From Frankiales bacterium (lineage in GTDB: Bacteria; Actinomycetota; Actinomycetes; Mycobacteriales; Jatrophihabitantaceae), in assembly GCA_025966315.1 (NCBI GenBank), contig JAOPUZ010000071.1:1-64000 (forward strand): DNA of 64,000 nt, written 5' to 3'. Shown here one piece after another: positions 15,063 through 30,184 of this stretch. The position numbers and the translations under genes were made by a program. Under the pieces are notes generated by a model that had not been told where the DNA came from, searched no databases, and saw only the letters and a program-made list of their open reading frames with translations. Each line of letters begins with the position of its first letter. Positions within the stretch are counted from its first letter, which is position 1.

Positions 15063-17713
15063 ATCGACTCACCACCCGATCCCAGGAAGGCCTCCAGCAG
15101 GCCCAGAGCCTCGCCACCGGGCTGGGGCACCCGGAGGTCGACGGTGAGCACCTATTGCTGGCATTGTTAAGTGACGAGGACGGCCTGGCGGTCCGGTTGC
15201 TCGACCTGGCCGGCGTCGACGTCGATGCCCTGCGTTCAGATGTCGAGTCCGATCTTGACCGGCGACCGAAGGTCAGCGGACCGGGCCAGACATCCGGCCA
15301 GATCCGGGTCACGGCCCGGCTGAGCCGGCTGCTCGACTCGGCCGACCGCGAAGCACGGCGGCTCAAGGATGACTACGTCTCGATCGAACACCTCCTGCTC
15401 GCCCTGATTGAGTCGGGCGGAGCTGGCGGCTCGGACGGAGCCGCCCAGCGGCTGGCCCAGCACGGCGCCACCAGAGACGCACTGCTGGCCGCGTTGGCCC
15501 AAGTGCGGGGCAACCAGCGGGTGACCTCCGCATCACCGGAATCGGCCTATGAGTCGCTGGAGAAGTACGGACGCGACCTGGTCGAGGACGCCCGCGCCGG
15601 GCGCCTAGATCCGGTCATCGGCCGCGACGCCGAGATCAGGCGCGTCATTCAAATTCTGTCCCGCAAGTCAAAAAACAACCCGGTGCTCATCGGCGATCCA
15701 GGCGTAGGCAAAACCGCCATCGTCGAGGGGTTGGCCCAGCGGATCGTGCGCCGCGACGTCCCCGAGAGCCTGCGCGAGAAGACCGTCTTCTCTCTCGATA
15801 TGGGGGCGCTAATCGCTGGCGCGAAGTACCGCGGCGAGTTCGAGGAACGGCTGAAGGCCGTCCTCACCGAGGTGAAAGCGGCCGAGGGTCGAATCCTGCT
15901 GTTCGTCGACGAGCTGCACACCGTGGTCGGCGCCGGCGCGTCCGAAGGGAGCATGGACGCGGGCAACATGCTCAAGCCGATGCTGGCACGGGGCGAACTG
16001 CACATGATCGGTGCCACCACTCTGGACGAGTACCGCAAACACATCGAGTCCGACGCCGCCCTGGAGCGTCGCTTCCAGCCAGTACTGGTCGATGAACCGT
16101 CGATCGAGGACGCCATCTCGATCCTGCGCGGACTCCGCGAGCGCCTGGAGATCTTCCACGGCGTGAAGATCCAGGACAGCGCACTGGTGGCGGCCGCGGT
16201 GCTGAGCCAGCGCTACATCGCCGACCGGTTCCTGCCGGATAAGGCCATCGATCTGGTCGACGAGGCGGCGGCCAGGCTGCGTACCGAGATCGACTCGATG
16301 CCCGCCGAGCTGGACAGCCTCACCCGTCGGGTGATGCGGCTGGAGATCGAGGACGCCGCATTGTCCAAGGAGGACGACCCGGCCAGCAAAGCACGGCTGG
16401 AGGAGTTACGCCGCGAGCTCGTTGGCCTGCGAGCCGAGGCCGACGCGAAACGCGCCCAGTGGGATGCCGAGCGTCAGGGGATCCGGCGGGTCCAACAGCT
16501 GCGCGGCGAACTCGAGCGGCGCCGGCAAGAAGCCGAAGAGTCCGAACGGCGCTACGACCTCAACCGAGCGGCCGAGCTGCGCTACGGCGAGATCGCCGAA
16601 CTCGAACGCCGCCTGGCCGCCGAAGAACAACAGCTGGCCGCCAAACAGGGCACCCGCCGGATGCTGCGCGAGACCGTCACCGAGGACGAGATCGCCGAGA
16701 TCGTCGCCTCCTGGACCGGGATCCCGATCAGCCGGCTACAGGAGGGAGAACGACAGAAAGTACTGCGCCTGGACACCATCCTGCATGAGCGGGTCATCGG
16801 GCAGGACGAGGCGGTACAGCTGGTCGCCGACGCGATGATCCGCGCCCGCTCCGGGATCAAGGACCCGCGCCGACCGATCGGGTCGTTCATCTTCCTCGGC
16901 CCCACCGGAGTCGGTAAAACCGAACTCGCCCGCACGCTTGCGTGGGCGCTATTCGACACCGAGCAGAACATGATCCGCATCGATATGAGCGAATACCAGG
17001 AACGCCACACCGTCAGTCGTCTGGTCGGCGCGCCACCCGGCTACGTCGGCTACGAAGAAGGTGGGCAGCTCACTGAAGCCGTCCGGCGCAAGCCGTTCTG
17101 CGTGGTGCTGCTGGACGAGATCGAGAAAGCTCATCCCGACGTATTCAACACGCTGCTGCAGGTCCTCGACGACGGCCGACTCACCGACGGCCAGGGGCGC
17201 ACGGTCAGCTTTCGCAACACCGTCGTCATAATGACCTCCAACATCGGCTCGCAATATCTGCTCGACGCGGCGACACCCGACGGCGAGATCAAATCCGACG
17301 CCCGCGACCTGGTGATGAGCGAGCTACGTGACCGCTTCCGGCCCGAGTTCCTCAACCGGGTCGATGACATCGTGCTGTTCAAGCCGTTGATGAGCAGCGA
17401 GATCGAGCAGATCGTCGAGTTGATGCTGGACGATCTGCGGCAGCGGCTGCTCGAGCGGCGCATCTCCCTGGAGGTGACCGAGGCGGCTAAGCACCGCATC
17501 GCGCAGCAGGGCTTCGACCCGGTCTACGGAGCCCGACCACTTCGCCGCTTCATCGCCCGCGAGGTCGAGACCCGCATCGGCCGAGCGCTGCTGGCCGAAG
17601 CGGTGCCCGACGGGGCGAGCGTCACGATCGATCTCCGCAACGGCGAACTCGACGTCCGATACACCAGCCCGAGTTCGGCGCAGGCACACACACAGACCTC
17701 GAGCGCGGCATGA
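15053..17713 (+). CDS. clpB: AAA+ disaggregase ClpB
   Basis: The start is ATG 15053, 8 nt after GGAGG (15040-15044), giving 886 residues. The double Clp_N repeat (about 1-150) contains [17 protein letters not shown] and [18 protein letters not shown]1 has Walker A GDPGVGKT at 214-221 and the sensor [16 protein letters not shown] coiled-coil middle domain (about 400-530, Arg/Glu-rich) marks it as ClpB rather than ClpC. NBD2 has GPTGVGKT at 616-623 and [16 protein letters not shown]. No ClpP-binding IGF loop was noticed. ClpB threads aggregated proteins together with DnaK, whose set is encoded just upstream. ATGA overlap with the thioredoxin gene extends the operon. Confidence 0.96.
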
Positions 17714-24100: not shown

Positions 24101-24210
24101 GCGGAGGGCGAGGGAACCGTCGGCCAAACGCTCGCGGACGTTCGCGACCTCCTCCTGAATCCCGCGTACAGATAACGGAAGCAGAGACCGCCCCTAGAAA
24201 AACGGGCGAT
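24101..24210. repeat. Distal copy of tRNA-Ser-linked direct repeat (att-like)
   Basis: The first 37 bp, from GCGGAGGGCGAGGGAACC on, are identical to 29865-29901. The rest matches closely except for a 10-bp insertion (24138-24147), one base change, one missing C and a changed hairpin loop. It begins with the same 15 bp, GCGGAGGGCGAGGGA, that form the 3' end of the tRNA-Ser gene at 29977-30064. Both copies have the same orientation, as attachment-site repeats would. Confidence 0.75.
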
Positions 24211-24447
24211 CATGAGGTCGCCTGGAGCCCACACCCAAACCCAAGGAACTGAGCCAACGCGACGTGACCACGCCGGCTCGGAATGCACCCCGCAATCAGC
24301 CACAGCCCCACCGCTCGCTACCCGTCGATCTCGCGCAAGTCTGCCCGGTTAGTGAGCTGGACCAGGTGGATCATTCTGCTTCTGCGTCCGAGGGCGGACC
24401 GTGGGTAGTCGTGGCCACCGAGCCGACGTAGCTTTACGGCCTACTCT

Positions 24448-24957
24448 GTGCCGATGCAGATCCCGCCCGAGTTGATCGACCGCATCGTGCAGTCCGTGCA
24501 AACCCAACTGCCTGAAGGCCTAAGCATCGTGCGTGTGTCCCCTCGCGCGTTCGAACTGCACCTCACCCCCGAACTGAGCCGGTCCCTGGGGCGGGGACCC
24601 AGGCGGCCATGGCATCACCCCATCGGAGTGCGTAACCGGGACGGGATCACACCACAGTCCATCGCATGGGCCGTCTGGACCGTGCTCGACACCCTGATCC
24701 ACGCCTCTCGAAGATGGGGCGTGCCATGGAAGCCCTCGGCAGCCAAGCACCTTTACGCCGACGCAGAACGCCGCGGCGACAGCAATGTCTACGGATGGAT
24801 CACTAACGACAGCGAAATCCGCGGCGACTTTCCCCCGATCAGTCTCAACGGGATCCTCATGACTCGGCCATCGTGGAGACGGCTGCCAGTGCCGTTCGTC
24901 CGCAGACATAGCATCCCAGTCACCGGACCAGTCCGGGCGGCACGATTCAAACACTGA
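24448..24957 (+). CDS. Hypothetical protein
   Basis: This 169-residue protein starts at GTG 24448 (ATG 24454 is also possible). The N-terminus MPMQIPPELIDRIVQSVQTQ and the continuing mix of hydrophobic and charged residues look like a real soluble protein. The frame on the opposite strand is much less natural. There is no signal peptide or membrane segment. I recognise no family. It is the first gene inside the repeat-bounded island, with no close neighbour to suggest a role. Confidence 0.6.
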   Translation: MPMQIPPELIDRIVQSVQTQLPEGLSIVRVSPRAFELHLTPELSRSLGRGPRRPWHHPIGVRNRDGITPQSIAWAVWTVLDTLIHASRRWGVPWKPSAAKHLYADAERRGDSNVYGWITNDSEIRGDFPPISLNGILMTRPSWRRLPVPFVRRHSIPVTGPVRAARFKH

Positions 24958-25058
24958 ACCGCGAATGCCTATCCAGGACCAATCCAGAGCCGTCGATACA
25001 GTGCTCTCGATCGGGCCCGCGGCACACAAGGCTGCTGCGCCCCGGACTCGATGGCGGG

Positions 25059-25262
25059 ATGAATCGCGTGAGTGCCCACGACGGTCGACTTGATCGGATT
25101 CGAACGACTCACGTCTTCACCGCGATGTGCTCGTGCGGCTGGCAGGGCACCAATACTCGGTGCATTTCGAGCCATGGGGAGCCGAACATATCCTCAGGCG
25201 GGGCGACGCCTTCCACGGGGTGGTCTAGCACGGTTGGGTCAGAAAGAGAGTATGAGAAATGA
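25059..25262 (+). CDS. Possible small protein with CSCGW motif
   Basis: This is a 67-residue frame. It contains FTAMCSCGWQGTN, a motif common in small actinobacterial zinc-binding proteins of unknown role, and its stop overlaps the next start at ATGA (25259-25262). The C-terminal half is low in hydrophobic residues and could be decayed. Coupled translation with the next gene is the main argument for it. It could equally be a remnant. Confidence 0.35.
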   Translation: MNRVSAHDGRLDRIRTTHVFTAMCSCGWQGTNTRCISSHGEPNISSGGATPSTGWSSTVGSEREYEK

Positions 25263-25537
25263 GCGAGGTTCTCATTTTCCGTCCCGAGATAGGCGCCGAG
25301 AGTCCACTCTGGGACAGCACCGGGAGCATGGTTTGCCTAGACTCTGTCGGCATACCTCGTGCACTGCAGGAACATTTGCGTTCATGGGCGTTCAACGCGA
25401 CGATGGGTGACGACGAAAGCGGACTGTCCAACGAAGGTATGCGCCTTCTCCGGCAGGTCGAGTTTTACACTTCGACTGCCTACAGTTTGCGCTGGGATTG
25501 GCAGGAGACGCTCGGGGATCCGTTCGCGGGGTTCTAA
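25259..25537 (+). CDS. Hypothetical protein, 92 aa
   Basis: The start ATG 25259 lies in an ATGA overlap with the preceding small frame. The protein (MSEVLIFRPEIGAESPLWDS to LRWDWQETLGDPFAGF) has a natural composition with several conserved-looking tryptophans and is probably soluble and folded. No domain is recognised. The overlap suggests that the pair is one unit, perhaps the remainder of a larger two-gene module in the island. Confidence 0.6.
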   Translation: MSEVLIFRPEIGAESPLWDSTGSMVCLDSVGIPRALQEHLRSWAFNATMGDDESGLSNEGMRLLRQVEFYTSTAYSLRWDWQETLGDPFAGF

Positions 25538-25840
25538 ATCACGAGCGGCGAGAGTTGCAAGCGATCGAACGCACCGCAGACCGAGAATGCTTCCGACTCT
25601 GCGACGTGCCGCCATGTCAGGACATCACTGCGTTAGAAAAGACTTGCCTAGCGCGCGTCATTCCGCCTCGCCCCCTCGGACAGAACACCCCGTCGACCGC
25701 ACACGGCACGCCTTAGCCTCGTTCTGCTCGGCAGGAATGACGTCGTCATTGGGCATGCCGGAGCGCAGATGAAAGCGATCTGGCGCGCGCCACCCTTTGA
25801 GGTTAGGTAGCCCGGACCTGAGATCGCTGCGGGTTGTAGC
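25538..25840. other. Intergenic region in island
   Basis: About 300 bp in which I see no convincing gene, repeat or promoter. Short frames on both strands have unnatural composition. Confidence 0.4.
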
Positions 25841-26173
25841 GTGCCCATCGTGTCCCGGGCCTGTTTGGTACCAGTCGGCATGGTCCTCGCCACCCTCAAC
25901 GCTCTGGCCGACTTCATCTTCGGGATAGCTACCGACATGGGACACCGGGGAGCGCTCTTGGTGACCGCGCTCGTGCTTGCTGGATGCCTCGGTGGCGGCC
26001 AGCTGACCCTGTACGCCATCCTCGACCCGACCAACGTCGCCACCACGTTGAAGGGAGTCGCCGGCCTGATGCTGCTCCTCACCACCGTCTATGTCGCGGT
26101 TCGACTCCTAAGTCGACTCTTCACCTCGTTACGAGAGGGCCGCCAACGAGGGACCGGCAAGCATTCTAGTTAG
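25841..26173 (+). CDS. Small membrane protein of unknown function
   Basis: This 110-residue protein starts at GTG 25841. It has three likely transmembrane segments: about 8-28 (LVPVGMVLATLNALADFIFG), 38-60 (ALLVTALVLAGCLGGGQLTL) and 70-92 (GVAGLMLLLTTVYVAVRLLS). A basic C-terminal tail (REGRQRGTGK) is probably cytosolic. No family is recognised. It is isolated within the island, with no Shine-Dalgarno I would trust, so the start may lie at the internal ATG near residue 14. Confidence 0.5.
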   Translation: MPIVSRACLVPVGMVLATLNALADFIFGIATDMGHRGALLVTALVLAGCLGGGQLTLYAILDPTNVATTLKGVAGLMLLLTTVYVAVRLLSRLFTSLREGRQRGTGKHSS

Positions 26174-26278
26174 ACGGGAGAAACGCCACCTGAGCGAAAG
26201 GATCCGTCGATCTGCGCGTTCTCGGCGGCGGCACCGCGGCGCGCAGATGAGTCCAAGTCGACCGCGGATGGTCCGCGG

Positions 26279-26650
26279 TCAGCGCAACTCACCACGCAGA
26301 ATGTCAGAGAGCACCGCCGCGTTGCTGATCTGCGTCGCCTTCGTCGCCGTGAGCAGAACTAGCGGGCCAGCGGCGTGGTACTGGCGCAACTGATCGAGCG
26401 CCTCTGCCTGCACCGGGCCAGTGAGCTCATCCAGGTAGCGGACGCGGAACTGGTCGAACAGCTGTTCCTGGTGTCCGTACCAAGTTCGCAACTGTGCTGA
26501 AGGAGCGACGTCGCGACACCACGCAGTGAGGCGGGCACGTTCACGAGACACCCCGCGGGGCCACAGCCGATCGACCAGAACCCGGACGCCGACCCCACCG
26601 TCTTCCGGGCCGTAGATTCGCCGCACCCTGATCGGATACTCGTCGGCCAC
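26279..26650 (-). CDS. DUF488-family protein
   Basis: This 123-residue cytosolic protein starts at GTG 26650. It shows the family hallmarks: RVRRIYGPEDGGVGVRVLVD leading into VDRLWPRGVSRERA, then WCRDVAPSAQLRTWYGH, FRVRYLDEL and LVLLTATKATQISNAAVL near the end. DUF488 proteins are short, widespread and of unknown biochemical activity. In the family the Lys/Cys position in the final motif varies; here it is Thr-Lys. The gene stands alone, convergent with the small membrane protein, inside the island. Confidence 0.88.
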   Translation of the reverse strand: MADEYPIRVRRIYGPEDGGVGVRVLVDRLWPRGVSRERARLTAWCRDVAPSAQLRTWYGHQEQLFDQFRVRYLDELTGPVQAEALDQLRQYHAAGPLVLLTATKATQISNAAVLSDILRGELR

Positions 26651-26805
26651 CTGCTCAGTGTGACCCGCCCAACGCTACGAACCATCATGCGGCGCAATGT
26701 CGTACGCGGGTCGCTCTACCTCACTCCGTCACTGCCTTCGAGTATCAATACCTGAGTCGCCGAAGTTTGTGAGCGTCAAGCCTTGGGCGCACACGCCGTC
26801 CAGTG

Positions 26806-27112
26806 CCCCCCGAAACCAGGCCGACTGCACGAGTGGTGATCGCCTTCGCGGCGGTTTTCGGAGTCATCGGGACCGCCATGCCGGCCATGACCGCAGTCGC
26901 TCTGGGCGCCTCGCCCCCGGCCGGGCAGCGCTCAGCTCGGCCGTGCTCAACGCGGCACGCCAAACCGGAGGGGTGCTGGGCGTCGCGGTCCTGGGCAGCG
27001 TCATCGAACCCCACGCTGACCTGCCAACCCTTCACGTCGCAATGGTCGTGTCGCCGGCGGCTACCTGGCGGCCGCTCTCCTAGCCACCCGAACCCACACC
27101 ATTCAGCCATGA
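26806..27112 (+). pseudogene. MFS drug-exporter C-terminal remnant (frameshifted)
   Basis: Three frames in succession spell the end of a DHA2-type MFS transporter. They are IAFAAVFGVIGTAMPAMTAV (about 26840-26900), then ALSSAVLNAARQTGGVLGVA and VLGSVIEP (about 26930-27010), then GGYLAAALLATRTHTIQP with a stop at 27110-27112. At least two frameshifts are needed, and the first 12 or so membrane segments are missing. It is a decayed fragment. The intact MFS genes elsewhere in the window share the NaaRQtGGxLGvAvLG motif. Confidence 0.7.
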
Positions 27113-27174
27113 CCACGCCAGAGCCCGAATCACGCAACAGCCGTTGCGCCTACTCGCCGCTGCGGCCCTACCCG

Positions 27175-28092
27175 CTACGGCCGCACGCGGATGATTGTCT
27201 TCCCGTTGCGCCGCCCGGTCGGACTGAGGGCGGCAACGGCATCATCGAGGTTCGCGACGTCGCCGATGTTGGTCCGTAGGCGTCCGTCGCGCACGCGCTG
27301 GACGATTTCCGTCAACTGTGCGCGGTCAGCCTCGACCACGAAGTCGATCGCCAGGCCGTCTGCGGGTCGTGCTTCGGGCGGCGCGACCACGGTCACCAGT
27401 GTTCCTCGGGGTCGGACCAGAGCCGCGGACCGCCGCTGGATGTCGCCGCCGATAACGTCGAATACCAGATCGACACCGCCGACATCTTCCAGCTCGTCGT
27501 TCTCAAGATCGACGAACTCATGCGCACCGAAGTCAAGCGCCTTCTGCCGGTCTGCCGCGCGGCCGGTACCGATGACGTAGGCGCCGGCCTCGCGCGCCAG
27601 CTGGGTCACCATCGTCCCGACCGCGCCGGCAGCACCGTGCGCGAGGACGCTCTGACCCGACTGAAGGCGGCCGTGCTGAAACAACCCCTGCCACGCGGTC
27701 AGGCCCGAGATCGGCAAGCTCGCCCCCACCGTGAAGTCAACGTCACCGGGCAGCGGCGCGAGGTTGCGTGCCTCGATGGCGACATACTCGGCCAGGGTGC
27801 CGTCGCGATGCCAGTCAGCCAGGCCGAACACCCGCTGCCCCACGGACAGTCCCGTCGTGCCGTACCCGAGAGCGGTCACCACCCCGGCCAGCTCGTGACC
27901 GAGGATCGACGGCGTCTTGTCCCGGCCGGCGCGATCGACCCACGTCGAGGGCCACTCCAGCTCGGTCGGAACGAAGCCCGACGCATGGATCTCAACGATG
28001 ACATCGTTGATCGCCGCCGATGGCTCAGGCCGCTCGGTCAGCGTCGTACCGGCCATTCCTGCGGCCTGGTCAGATACCACGATGGCTTTCAC
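27175..28092 (-). CDS. NADP-dependent zinc-free quinone oxidoreductase (MDR family)
   Basis: The protein has 305 residues. The GroES-like domain (about 25-115) includes SILGHELAGVVTALGYG and VGQRVFGLADWHRDGTLAEY. The Rossmann domain (about 120-255) includes SGLTAWQGLFQHGRLQSGQS, HGAAGAVGTMVTQLAREAGA and VDLVFDVIGGD. Zinc-ligand cysteines are absent, as in quinone reductase-like MDR proteins. It would reduce quinones or reactive carbonyls with NADPH. It is divergent from a TetR gene across 112 bp carrying two palindromes, so it is almost certainly that regulator's target. Confidence 0.92.
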   Translation of the reverse strand: MKAIVVSDQAAGMAGTTLTERPEPSAAINDVIVEIHASGFVPTELEWPSTWVDRAGRDKTPSILGHELAGVVTALGYGTTGLSVGQRVFGLADWHRDGTLAEYVAIEARNLAPLPGDVDFTVGASLPISGLTAWQGLFQHGRLQSGQSVLAHGAAGAVGTMVTQLAREAGAYVIGTGRAADRQKALDFGAHEFVDLENDELEDVGGVDLVFDVIGGDIQRRSAALVRPRGTLVTVVAPPEARPADGLAIDFVVEADRAQLTEIVQRVRDGRLRTNIGDVANLDDAVAALSPTGRRNGKTIIRVRP

Positions 28093-28125
28093 GAAGGTCG
28101 TCCCCTTATTTGTGCCGTAGATATT

Positions 28126-28141
28126 TGGGCTTGTCAGCCCA
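28126..28141. promoter_or_regulatory. TetR operator candidate, site 1
   Basis: TGGGCT-TGTC-AGCCCA is a perfect 6-bp inverted repeat with a 4-bp spacer, lying just upstream of the oxidoreductase start. A second copy sits 42 bp away. Confidence 0.7.
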
Positions 28142-28167
28142 CTTCTTGAGTGAACACGAGTGAAACC

Positions 28168-28183
28168 TGGGCTGTCAAGCCCA
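28168..28183. promoter_or_regulatory. TetR operator candidate, site 2
   Basis: TGGGCT-GTCA-AGCCCA has the same arms as site 1. The centre-to-centre distance is 42 bp, four helical turns. It lies 21 bp before the TetR start, so binding would control both divergent genes. Confidence 0.7.
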
Positions 28184-28204
28184 ATTTGAGATATCGTGTG
28201 AACG

Positions 28205-28858
28205 ATGGAAGCCGTTACAGCAGTTCGCGGAGCTCACAAGCTCACCGCCAGGGGCCACGCCACGCGGGCCCGCATCCTGGAACACGCAGCCGAACTCATC
28301 TACACCCACGGTGTCCACGCCACGAACAACGAGAAGCTCCGCCAAACCGCCGGCGTCAGCGGATCGCAGATCAACCACTACTTCCCGACCAAGGAAGACC
28401 TCGTCCTGGCCGTCATCGCCTGGCAGGCCGAACGCGTCCTCGCGTTCCATCGCGGTGAACGCTTCGCCGGTTTCGATGACCTCGACGCGTTTCGGGAGTG
28501 GGCGGACCACTACATCGCCTACGAGCGCGCCTACCAAGAAGGCTGCAGCCTCGGCTCCCTCGCCAGCGAGATCATCAAGACCGACCTCGACGTTCACGAC
28601 GAACTTGCCAGCGCGTTCGATCAATGGCGAGACATCTTTCGTGACGGACTCCGACGGATGCAGCGACTCAATCGCATCAGCGCCGCCGCGGATCCCAATC
28701 AGCTGGCCAACCTGCTTCTCGCCGCATTCCAAGGCGGCATGCTCCTCGCTCAAGTCGCTCGCGACATCACCCCGCTCAAAGACGCGTTGCAGACAGCCAT
28801 CGACCACGTGCAGACATTCGCCGAGTCACCCGGTGACGAGGCACTCCAACATCCGTAG
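28205..28858 (+). CDS. TetR/AcrR-family repressor
   Basis: The protein has 217 residues. The N-terminal HTH (about 14-64) is ATRARILEHAAELIYTHGVH followed by NNEKLRQTAGVSGSQINHYF and PTKEDLVLAVI, the classic TetR pattern. The C-terminal ligand domain (about 80-205) includes GCSLGSLASEIIKTD and NLLLAAFQGGMLLAQVAR, as in regulators of oxidoreductases and efflux genes. It is divergent from the quinone oxidoreductase with two palindromic operators between them. The likely signal is a quinone or electrophile; this is inference from the target. Confidence 0.93.
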   Translation: MEAVTAVRGAHKLTARGHATRARILEHAAELIYTHGVHATNNEKLRQTAGVSGSQINHYFPTKEDLVLAVIAWQAERVLAFHRGERFAGFDDLDAFREWADHYIAYERAYQEGCSLGSLASEIIKTDLDVHDELASAFDQWRDIFRDGLRRMQRLNRISAAADPNQLANLLLAAFQGGMLLAQVARDITPLKDALQTAIDHVQTFAESPGDEALQHP

Positions 28859-29247
28859 CAGCCGACGCCACGAAGCGCCGAGACGCGATGTCACCGACCG
28901 TGGTCGGGTCCGGTTTCGTGGTCGACTGCGGCAGGCCGCGGCGACGCAGGTACACAGCGGGGTTCACGCAGTGCCACGTGTTGGACGACTGGCTAGCTGT
29001 ATGAGGACAGCAGTCGACATCGACCTGCCCTCGACCATCGGGGTCGGTCACGACCGTGGCGCGGAACGTCCGTTCGGCCCGAGATCGGTGGCGGCCGTGA
29101 GCGATAGCTTCGCGGGCAGCCCCATCGGCCGCGAATTCAACGCTCGAGAGCTTGCCGCGTTGCTGGCGAGGTACTCGCGTGATGGTGTCGCTGCAGGTGG
29201 ACTTCCGTCATCGATTCGCCAGCCGCTTTCGGGGATGACGGGTCGGC
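28859..29247. other. Region without a confident gene
   Basis: About 390 bp. A plus-strand frame starting near 29000 (MRTAVDIDLPSTIGVG) resembles the start of a VapB-type antitoxin but then loses order. A minus-strand frame contains WHCVNPAVYLRRRGLP, which looks protein-like but has no clear start or family. I read this as decayed island DNA. Confidence 0.4.
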
Positions 29248-29607
29248 CTACATGCGCGTCGATTGCGGGTACCGATCGTCAAGCCGGTAAAGCAGCTCCC
29301 GCGCAGCGCGGTCGGCGGGTAGTCCAGCGTCGGCATTCGTGAGTTCGACGAGGATCGTGTGTGGATCGAGACCATCAGCGTCGAGGCGTCGTAGTGAGCC
29401 GACCTCGTCGGTCACGGTGTCACCGACGAGGTGATGCTCCGCAGAGTTGCGAAGATCGTGGACCGCGTTGGCAATCCACACTTCTGCATCGTTTGCGTGG
29501 TCGAAATCCAGTTGGTCGGCGCCGTCGGGTGGTTGGACGTCGTCGTCGGCCGGGTCGGGCATCGGAGGTTCGGTCGCCGCAGAAAAGGCGCGCCAGGACG
29601 AACGCAT
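29248..29607 (-). CDS. Hypothetical acidic protein
   Basis: The frame has 119 residues from ATG 29607; a start at ATG 29562 (MPDPADDDVQPPDGADQLDF) is equally likely because neither has a clear Shine-Dalgarno. The protein is acidic and soluble. Its body VWIANAVHDLRNSAEHHLVG and the end RAARELLYRLDDRYPQS look like a folded helical domain. No family is recognised. It is the last gene of the island before the proximal repeat and the tRNA-Ser. Confidence 0.5.
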   Translation of the reverse strand: MRSSWRAFSAATEPPMPDPADDDVQPPDGADQLDFDHANDAEVWIANAVHDLRNSAEHHLVGDTVTDEVGSLRRLDADGLDPHTILVELTNADAGLPADRAARELLYRLDDRYPQSTRM

Positions 29608-29864
29608 TCAATCAATACGACGCTCATCGTCGTCCAATCTGCTGCCAGGCGTGGTTCGAGGTTCAACATCGAGCAGCGTGTATCACCGCACTGGGGCGGT
29701 GCTGTCGCAGCTGCTTGAGATAGTTAGTCAGGAAAGCTGTCGTGCCCGCCGCGTGCCCGTAGCCGCAGGCAAACACGGTGTCTGACGGTCATCCACGATC
29801 AGCGCCGAACGGGCGCCGCGGCCACGCAGCCCAGCAAATCCAGGCCACGCAGCCATCTGACGGG

Positions 29865-29964
29865 GCGGAGGGCGAGGGAACCGTCGGCCAAACGCTCGCG
29901 GCCTCCTCCCGAATCCCGCCGTACAGATAACGGAAGCAGAGACCGCCCGGAGAAACTGGGCGAT
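29865..29964. repeat. Proximal copy of tRNA-Ser-linked direct repeat (att-like)
   Basis: The first 37 bp are identical to 24101-24137, and the match continues with small differences to the hairpin CGCCC/GGGCG. It ends 12 bp before the tRNA-Ser 3' end, where the 15-bp core GCGGAGGGCGAGGGA occurs a third time (29979-29993). Tandem cores at a tRNA 3' end fit repeated site-specific integration. Confidence 0.75.
29944..29962 (-). terminator. Hairpin downstream of tRNA-Ser
   Basis: CGCCC and GGGCG enclose a 9-nt loop, 15 nt beyond the tRNA 3' end on the minus strand, followed by GTCTCT. The stem is kept, with a different loop, in the distal repeat copy. It is a probable weak terminator. Confidence 0.45.
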
Positions 29965-29976
29965 CTTCGCTTCCGT

Positions 29977-30064
29977 TGGCGGAGGGCGAGGGATTCGAAC
30001 CCTCGATAGGTTTCCCTATAGCGGTTTTCAAGACCGCCGCCATCGGCCACTAGGCGAGCCCTCC
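29977..30064 (-). tRNA. tRNA-Ser(TGA)
   Basis: This is an 88-nt class II tRNA. The acceptor GGAGGGC (5' end at 30064) pairs with GCCCTCC. The anticodon arm GCGGT-CTTGAAA-ACCGC gives anticodon TGA. A long variable arm and the T-arm GAGGG-TTCGAAT-CCCTC follow, with discriminator G and an encoded CCA (29979-29977). Its 3' end is the core of the direct repeats that bound the island. Confidence 0.95.
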
Positions 30065-30112
30065 TGGCGCCAGCGTGAGCTGGCATACGTCATTGTGCCG
30101 TAGCCGCCGCGC

Positions 30113-30184
30113 CAGGTTTGCACCCCGCATCAGGTTTGCATCCTGCGCCAAGTTTGCATCCTGCGCCAAGTTTGCATCCCGCAC
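30113..30184. repeat. Four tandem 18-bp repeats upstream of tRNA-Ser
   Basis: Units start at 30113, 30131, 30149 and 30167, each near CA(G/A)GTTTGCATCCTGCGC, with one to four differences between units. They lie directly upstream of the tRNA-Ser promoter side and downstream of the histidine kinase stop. The unit is not part of a convincing protein. Confidence 0.85.

Follow-up and report, generated by a model that had tools for sequence, protein, structure and literature searches.

Short cassettes behind actinobacterial tRNA genes that end in a copy of the local tRNA 3′ end

tRNA 3′ ends have long been known as entry doors for integrase-borne islands, and a 64,000-nucleotide stretch of a Frankiales genome (contig JAOPUZ010000071.1; the window) raises the question of whether the repeats beside its tRNA-Ser(TGA) gene mark such an island. 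The 15-mer GCGGAGGGCGAGGGA, taken from the 3′ end of this tRNA, matches exactly at 24101, 29865 and 29979 (the last within the tRNA itself) and nowhere else in the window; with up to two mismatches allowed, shuffled sequences gave 0.64 matches on average, and three were reached in 1 of 100 shuffles. Long repeats start at the first two of these positions. They span 24101-24211 and 29865-29975, are identical over the first 37 of 37 bp and 85% identical overall, and differ by a 10-bp indel. The initial annotation had described a direct repeat of about 100 bp (24101-24210 and 29865-29964) bearing the tRNA-Ser 3′ end, with a third occurrence in the tRNA. The repeat is indeed real, and its units are two copies of a cassette of ~114 bp (Table 1). 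Its extent needed correction, since it ends where the tRNA starts, so that the proximal copy occupies the entire gap from its own 15-mer to the tRNA. A search of the whole genome for further copies, as had been proposed, returned these two only (E≤0.001).

Table 1. Features of the tRNA-Ser(TGA) locus, in window coordinates.
Feature	Position	Strand	Basis
Cassette 2, first part of hairpin 1 missing	24101-24211	-	R2 model, 57.8 bits, E 3.5e-10
Cassette 2, copy of T60-C74	24101-24115	-	
Cassette 2, scaffold	24117-24155	-	
Cassette 2, guide GGGATTCA	24156-24163	-	
Cassette 2, hairpin-1 remnant	from about 24174	-	
5.65 kb separating cassettes 1 and 2	24212-29864		
DUF488	26279-26650	-	Pfam
Quinone-reductase-like (alcohol-dehydrogenase/quinone-reductase)	27175-28092	-	Pfam
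TetR regulator	28205-28858	+	Pfam
Cassette 1, 114-bp step from tRNA T60-C74 to copy	29865-29978	-	R2 model, 69.5 bits, E 4e-13
Cassette 1, copy of tRNA-Ser T60-C74 (15 nt)	29865-29879	-	
Cassette 1, altered position 59′	29880	-	
Cassette 1, scaffold (GGAGGAG-hairpin 2-CGACGG)	29881-29909	-	
Cassette 1, guide GGGATTCG, reverse complement of tRNA CGAATCCC (56-63)	29910-29917	-	Read from sequence
Cassette 1, hairpin 1, terminator-like, 20-nt arms; outermost base is tRNA A76	29929-29977	-	Inverted repeat and folds
tRNA-Ser(TGA), CCA encoded; cassette target	29977-30064	-	ARAGORN

The 5.65 kb between the cassettes contain ordinary genes, and an integrative element is only a candidate reading of this stretch. 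Pfam found no match for five of eight chosen ORFs, and an MFS fragment annotated earlier was not borne out, as the ORFs at 25841-26173 and 26697-27083 match no Pfam family at E≤0.01. GC content, suggested as a sign of foreign origin, is 61-68% in 1-kb steps, only slightly under that of most of the surroundings. Neither Pfam on the eight ORFs nor a search for tyrosine recombinase (TyrRec) motifs recognised an integrase in the stretch. Relatives of the TetR and reductase genes (77-83%) occur in genome G007, ~100 bp behind a tRNA-Asn and without a cassette. In other genomes cassettes follow other tRNAs with no island between tRNA and cassette. Thus, of the earlier proposal of a decayed integrative element, insertion at the tRNA 3′ end stands; the decayed element does not, because no integrase was recognised and the cassettes are free-standing elsewhere. 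The alternative offered with it, two successive insertions, agrees with our results in that there was more than a single event.

The repeat represents a seemingly undescribed family of ~70-150-base insertions that lie directly behind tRNA genes in scattered actinobacteria. Read in the direction of the tRNA, the tRNA is followed by hairpin 1, a spacer, a guide that is the reverse complement of positions 57-63 of the same tRNA, a scaffold (GGAGGAG-hairpin 2-CGACGG) and a copy of the local tRNA 3′ end from T60. The guide is not a direct copy of the 5′ strand of the T-stem, since GGGATTTG and GGGAATCG track the reverse complement of CAAATCCC and CGATTCCC. The structure covaries, with changes on both sides in 7 of 10 pairs, a level reached in none of 500 shuffles. 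Scaffolds are 94-98% alike behind different tRNAs (G007 Ser-TGA, G007 Ser-CGA and G006 Pro), whereas hairpin 1, present on one side only, has a median identity among cassettes of 0.43 (0.34 when shuffled); between G007 Ser-TGA and G006 Pro the values are 0.96 for the scaffold and 0.31 for hairpin 1. Such frequent divergence of hairpin 1 beside near-identical scaffolds would be unexpected if the whole cassette were copied as a block. At 16 loci compared with Rfam, no family reached its curated score over guide and scaffold; tRNA, tRNA-Sec and tmRNA alone passed their thresholds, and a few sub-threshold matches overlapped hairpin 1. The listings and abstract openings returned by a literature search held no description of the family.

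Covariance models R1 and R2, built with the guide and copy columns included, gave 50 matches (E≤0.001) in 15 actinobacterial genomes. For 42 of them, a same-strand tRNA or tmRNA was called immediately upstream; the other eight lie at contig ends, behind tRNA 3′ halves or are the distal copy in the window and two others in G542. The host genes encode Ser, Pro, Ala, Gly, Leu, Arg, Met and SeC tRNAs and tmRNA, and several cassettes stand in tandem. This distribution, together with the two copies in the genome of the window, argues against a dispersed REP-like repeat, the scenario of many copies away from tRNAs that had been named as refuting the earlier proposal. Occurrence is patchy, with cassettes in 6 of 9 genomes from the genus, 9 of 298 from the order and 8 of 396 from the phylum. 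An exact pattern that recovers only 5 of the 49 known cassettes (a table that excludes G609) found five stretches in GTDB, all in MAGs (Pseudonocardiales BP_206 and BP_200, Frankiales RYN_134), and none in viral contigs.

Both the copy and the guide fit the local tRNA. Among 40 cassettes with a called tRNA, the 3′ copy was strictly best for its own tRNA in 38 and identical to it (14/14) in 27. The two exceptions were G379 Ser-GGA (a tie at 13) and G594 Ser-TGA (9/14); the latter copy is decayed, as is that of G051 Ser-CGA (11/14). The tRNA base 59 was kept at the junction in none of the 40. The guide matched the reverse complement of positions 57-63 of its own tRNA at 7/7 bases in 28 cassettes, 6/7 in nine, 5/7 in two and 4/7 in one; the summed fit was 264, compared with a mean of 221 and a maximum of 239 in 2000 permutations, figures that overstate independence because the cassettes are related. 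Of 84 distinct tRNA genes at the examined loci, 30 had a 3′-end copy within 400 bp, and each of the 30 had a cassette, recognised by regular expression in 25 cases and by the models in 5. The scaffold was absent from 51 of the 54 genes without a copy; in the remaining three it belonged to the cassette of a neighbour (one) or accompanied a decayed copy (two).

An empty site was found for one cassette. The tRNA-Ala(TGC) gene of G003 carries a 114-bp unit that the related G006 lacks exactly, with 72 of 75 bases alike downstream; the unit is present in one of the seven Ala(TGC) genes seen and brings a hairpin 1 missing from G006. Since target-site duplication and empty site coincide here, the comparison shows the cassette at this one locus to be an insertion with duplication of the tRNA 3′ end; elsewhere, anatomy suggests the same. 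The difference could possibly reflect a loss in G006 rather than a gain in G003. At the tmRNA locus of G051, the downstream flank could not be aligned with those of four relatives.

The best explanation, to which we give a probability of about one half, is that the 110-bp repeat belongs to a family of small insertions that encode no protein and are directed at tRNA and tmRNA 3′ ends. The cassette, or its RNA, would find its site by pairing of the 8-nt guide with the T-arm across 59|60, and a putative enzyme acting in trans would make staggered cuts near 59|60 and 74|75, so that the 15 bases between them would be copied. Entry doubles the tRNA from T60 to about C74, as the empty site shows at one locus and anatomy suggests elsewhere, one copy remaining in the whole tRNA and the other ending the cassette. 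Hairpin 1 may replace the original transcription terminator, which would leave the host tRNA unharmed, and the intact T-arm upstream would let more cassettes enter, giving tandem arrays. The tRNA-Ser of the window would have received two cassettes, 85% alike and sharing hairpin-1 sequence, probably as a tandem pair later split by 5.65 kb of other DNA inside hairpin 1 of the distal one. Among 20 chosen proteins from 12 flanking regions, Pfam recognised no integrase, transposase or reverse transcriptase, and three were without a family; guide RNAs of the TnpB, IscB or IS110 type were set aside, as no such gene was found among these proteins. We consider it unlikely that the cassettes are minimal RNA-guided mobile elements of a new class, in which a tRNA-promoted trailer RNA of ~100 nt, with an internal 8-nt guide recognising the T-arm across 59|60, would insert like an intron, doubling the tRNA 3′ end and never breaking the host gene.

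The fit of guide to local tRNA is almost too good, and selection in place could explain it equally. The cassette might be kept as an RNA acting where it lies, the guide invading the T-arm and the copy replacing the 3′ strand of T-stem and acceptor stem, so that an intron-like alternative fold controls maturation or amount of the tRNA. The swapped fold is the predicted minimum-energy structure in 5 of 10 full transcripts and within 0.2-2.4 kcal/mol of it in three more; the change at 59′ in all 40 cassettes would prevent full pairing of the guide with its own copy, and in G005 Pro the copy and guide side changed jointly (C-G compared with A-T in the tRNA). However, the two shortest units folded are predicted to lose 5-6 kcal/mol in the swapped fold, the terminator-like hairpin 1 would end most transcripts ahead of the guide, and presence is patchy, which makes this account rather doubtful.

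It is less probable still that the cassettes are att footprints of tyrosine-integrase elements, with attR left and the interior lost. Such elements typically have the tRNA 3′ end as core repeat, accrete in tandem and leave empty sites, all of which fits; moreover, the tRNA 3′ end is directly repeated at both ends, and the cassettes of the window flank 5.65 kb. A recombinase core, however, must match its target, yet near-identical scaffolds with an always-local copy lie behind different tRNAs. The TyrRec motif pair was absent from 27 cassette loci (a search of uncontrolled sensitivity), and Pfam found no integrase among the 8 island ORFs and 20 neighbours. No cassette appeared in 2.9 million viral contigs searched with two patterns that recover 31 of the 49 known cassettes; with a 71-bp query, phage records gave no match, and plasmids just one of 21 bp attributable to chance. 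Least probable, in our view, is that guide and copy arose at the palindromic T-arm through local slippage of replication or fold-back copying, the scaffold being a favoured, recurrent hairpin loop. Guide and copy do point outward from the scaffold like two fold-back arms, a scaffold-only pattern, GGGAGGAGCGNAGCGACGG, occurs in six stretches of viral contigs with no tRNA, and identical short units are repeated in tandem in G385 and G542. Against this, the junctions GGAGGAG and CGACGG are common to distant families, 40-nt scaffolds are almost identical behind different tRNAs, and the G003 unit introduces a hairpin 1 that is not in G006.

If the reading as protein-less insertions holds, tRNA 3′ ends are also home to an insertion that fits the tRNA it targets; this would be a very small natural system whose insertion site seems to be chosen by a short complementary sequence, and would explain actinobacterial tRNA 3′-end repeats easily taken for decayed islands. 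On the most cautious reading, the cassettes still form a structured family, so far unannotated, that occupies tRNA tails across a phylum. Tyrosine-integrase elements share with them the direct repeat of the tRNA 3′ end, the whole tRNA and tandem accretion, but the cassette is ~110 bp long and gene-less, has a guide and carries one scaffold across tRNAs with a local copy. IS110 bridge RNAs are similar in the idea of an RNA guide that chooses the target; the cassette, however, has no recombinase gene, and IS110 is not known to make a 15-bp duplication. MITEs and other small non-autonomous bacterial repeats are likewise small and protein-less, duplicate their target site and are presumably moved in trans. 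In contrast to them, the cassettes share no terminal inverted repeats with one another (hairpin 1 varies and is on one side only), keep a strict tRNA 3′ site and orientation, and complement the target with part of their sequence. REP elements are also short, GC-rich intergenic hairpins, whereas the cassette is tied to tRNA genes and duplicates its target. SINE-like elements that move by target-primed reverse transcription are linked to tRNAs, have duplications near 15 bp and encode no protein, but here the target is the tRNA gene itself and no reverse transcriptase was seen beside the copies. Group I and II introns, of whose catalytic core Rfam found no match at the 16 loci, and archaeal tRNA introns at 59/60 resemble the cassette in internal pairing across the insertion junction and in the T-loop 59|60 site; unlike these introns, the cassette is far smaller and leaves the tRNA whole upstream.

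The window belongs to contig 37 of G000, a draft genome of 4.56 Mb (other G numbers are genomes compared with it, C numbers contigs and L numbers extracted loci). The initial annotation had described repeats carrying the tRNA-Ser 3' end, and this was borne out: bases T60-C74 of tRNA-Ser(TGA) (plus strand GCGGAGGGCGAGGGA) are found at 24101, 29865 and 29979, and 29865-29975 aligns to 24101-24211 at 85% with an indel of 10 bp. At E<=0.001 the G000 genome has no further copy of the repeat. In congeners, the repeat stretch lies behind tRNA-Ser(TGA) in G005 and behind tRNA-Ser(CGA) in G003 and G006, where the end copy fits the local tRNA-Ser(CGA), not tRNA-Ser(TGA). The window's tRNA-Ser(TGA) itself shows 95% identity to that of G030, from another family, versus 87% to congeners G003 and G006; just upstream of it, at 30109-30180, are about four tandem 18-bp units resembling GCGCCAAGTTTGCATCCT. 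Elsewhere in the window, the short stretch 17000-17250 recurs at 76-78% in several places in the genus (L080, L088, G001:C33, G003:C315), twice at other sites in G000.

A covariance model built from six copies (R1) was used to find further copies in the genus, and a second (R2), from 15 copies, then screened the order (298 genomes), one family (5) and the phylum (396). Leaving weaker matches out of the counts, we obtained 50 matches with E<=0.001 in 15 genomes: 6/9 in the genus, 0/15 in the rest of the family, 9/298 in the order and 8/396 in the phylum. No tRNA was found in the loci of the eight order-level matches with E between 0.01 and 0.05. A tRNA or tmRNA was called directly upstream of 42 of the 50. 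Cassettes at L142 and L173 sit on 3' halves of tRNA-Met and tRNA-Gly that begin near the anticodon; these halves look like far ends of islands that had entered the anticodon loop, with the cassette carried along.

Host tRNA of the window and the eight matches without a called upstream tRNA or tmRNA
Feature	Position	Strand	Number of matches	Setting
tRNA-Ser(TGA)	29977-30064	minus		
Window's distal copy	24101-24211		1	
Matches in G005, G003	G005:C129, G003:C185		2	close to contig ends
Matches in G006, G385	G006:C72, G385:C56 (two)		3	following tRNA-Met and tRNA-Gly 3' halves
Matches in G542			2	no tRNA or tmRNA called

Following the intact tRNA, the cassette runs as hairpin 1, a spacer of roughly ten bases, a guide, a scaffold (GGAGGAG, hairpin 2, CGACGG), one base, and a copy of the tRNA from T60. 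Hairpin 1 often has about 20 near-perfect pairs (it is short in G385 and G542), and the minimal form of hairpin 2 is GCGNAGC. The step from T60 to the first base of the copy is 68-154 bp in tRNA-adjoining cassettes. Several loci have an extra terminator-like hairpin beyond the cassette, probably the tRNA's original terminator. Two or three units stand in tandem behind tRNA-Ser (G007, G039, G505), Leu (G379), SeC and Gly (G542) and Gly (G385).

Among 40 cassettes with a usable tRNA, the copy fitted its own tRNA strictly better than any other in 38, matching its own tRNA at 14/14 bases in 27, 13/14 in 7 and fewer in 6; the most frequent exact run was 15, T60 to C74 (10/40). The guide equalled the reverse complement of its own tRNA's bases 57-63 exactly in 28, with one mismatch in nine, two in two and three in one. 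The base preceding the copy never equalled tRNA base 59 (0/40). Among 84 tRNA genes in the examined loci, 3'-end copies occurred only with a cassette (30/30), a figure that measures linkage, not frequency, as the loci were partly picked for cassettes.

At tRNA-Ala(TGC), G003 has a 114-bp unit, and in the G006 orthologue the tRNA 3' end directly joins the sequence that follows the G003 copy. The two are alike at 72/75 bases downstream and at 78/100 upstream, the latter ungapped and lowered by a 4-base gap before the tRNA. Since G000, G001, G002, G004 and G008 also have tRNA-Ala(TGC) without a cassette, the comparison favours gain in G003, with the poor alignment of the other flanks leaving room for loss in G006. 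Scaffolds behind G007 Ser-TGA, G007 Ser-CGA and G006 Pro are 94-98% alike while their hairpins 1 are less so (0.31-0.64). By contrast, at the Leu, Gly, Ala and Ser loci of G379 hairpin 1 is 0.78-0.83 alike to the Leu version, so the two parts are not always moved as one block.

The window's cassettes have hairpin-1 and spacer sequence in common and are thus most simply read as two tandem units following tRNA-Ser. Of these, the distal one starts within its own hairpin 1 (24211), and the 5.65 kb between them carries DUF488, quinone-reductase-like and TetR genes. The latter two have 83% and 77% relatives behind tRNA-Asn in G007, compared with mostly nearer 66-75% for syntenic genes across the genus, hinting at transfer. 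These relatives (G007:C377; L093 3005-5032) lie about 100 bp behind the tRNA-Asn, without a cassette.

Hairpin 2 and a short outer stem covary, with both-side changes in 7/10 pairs and 0/500 shuffles as high, in an alignment fitted to the structure. Fold z-scores were about -4.5 for the window's proximal cassette and -0.77 for the distal one. In a swapped fold, the guide pairs with the tRNA T-arm and the copy replaces the 3' strand of the T-stem and acceptor stem; of ten tRNA-cassette transcripts, this was best in five, within 2.4 kcal/mol in three and 5-6 kcal/mol worse in two.

No integrase, transposase or reverse transcriptase was found among 20 neighbour proteins, all ordinary, from 12 cassette loci, nor a tyrosine recombinase motif in 27 loci (a search run without a positive control). 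Two patterns, which catch 31/49 known cassettes, found none in viral contigs. One 71-bp query had no match in phage records and, in plasmids, only a 21-bp match to one Rahnella plasmid. The scaffold GGGAGGAGCGAAGCGACGG is present without a tRNA in viral contigs L176 and L178-L181, the last four adjoining a GGGAGAGGGA / TCCCTCTCCC inverted repeat. In G051 (L129, about 1428-1492), a palindromic repeat begins directly after the tmRNA cassette; copies of it are dispersed in large numbers in G024 and G068, with a few in G051.

Whether insertion is guided we consider an even bet. That the cassettes form a family of tRNA-tail insertions, each combining a copy derived from its target with a guide complementary to that target, we hold with a probability of about 0.85.
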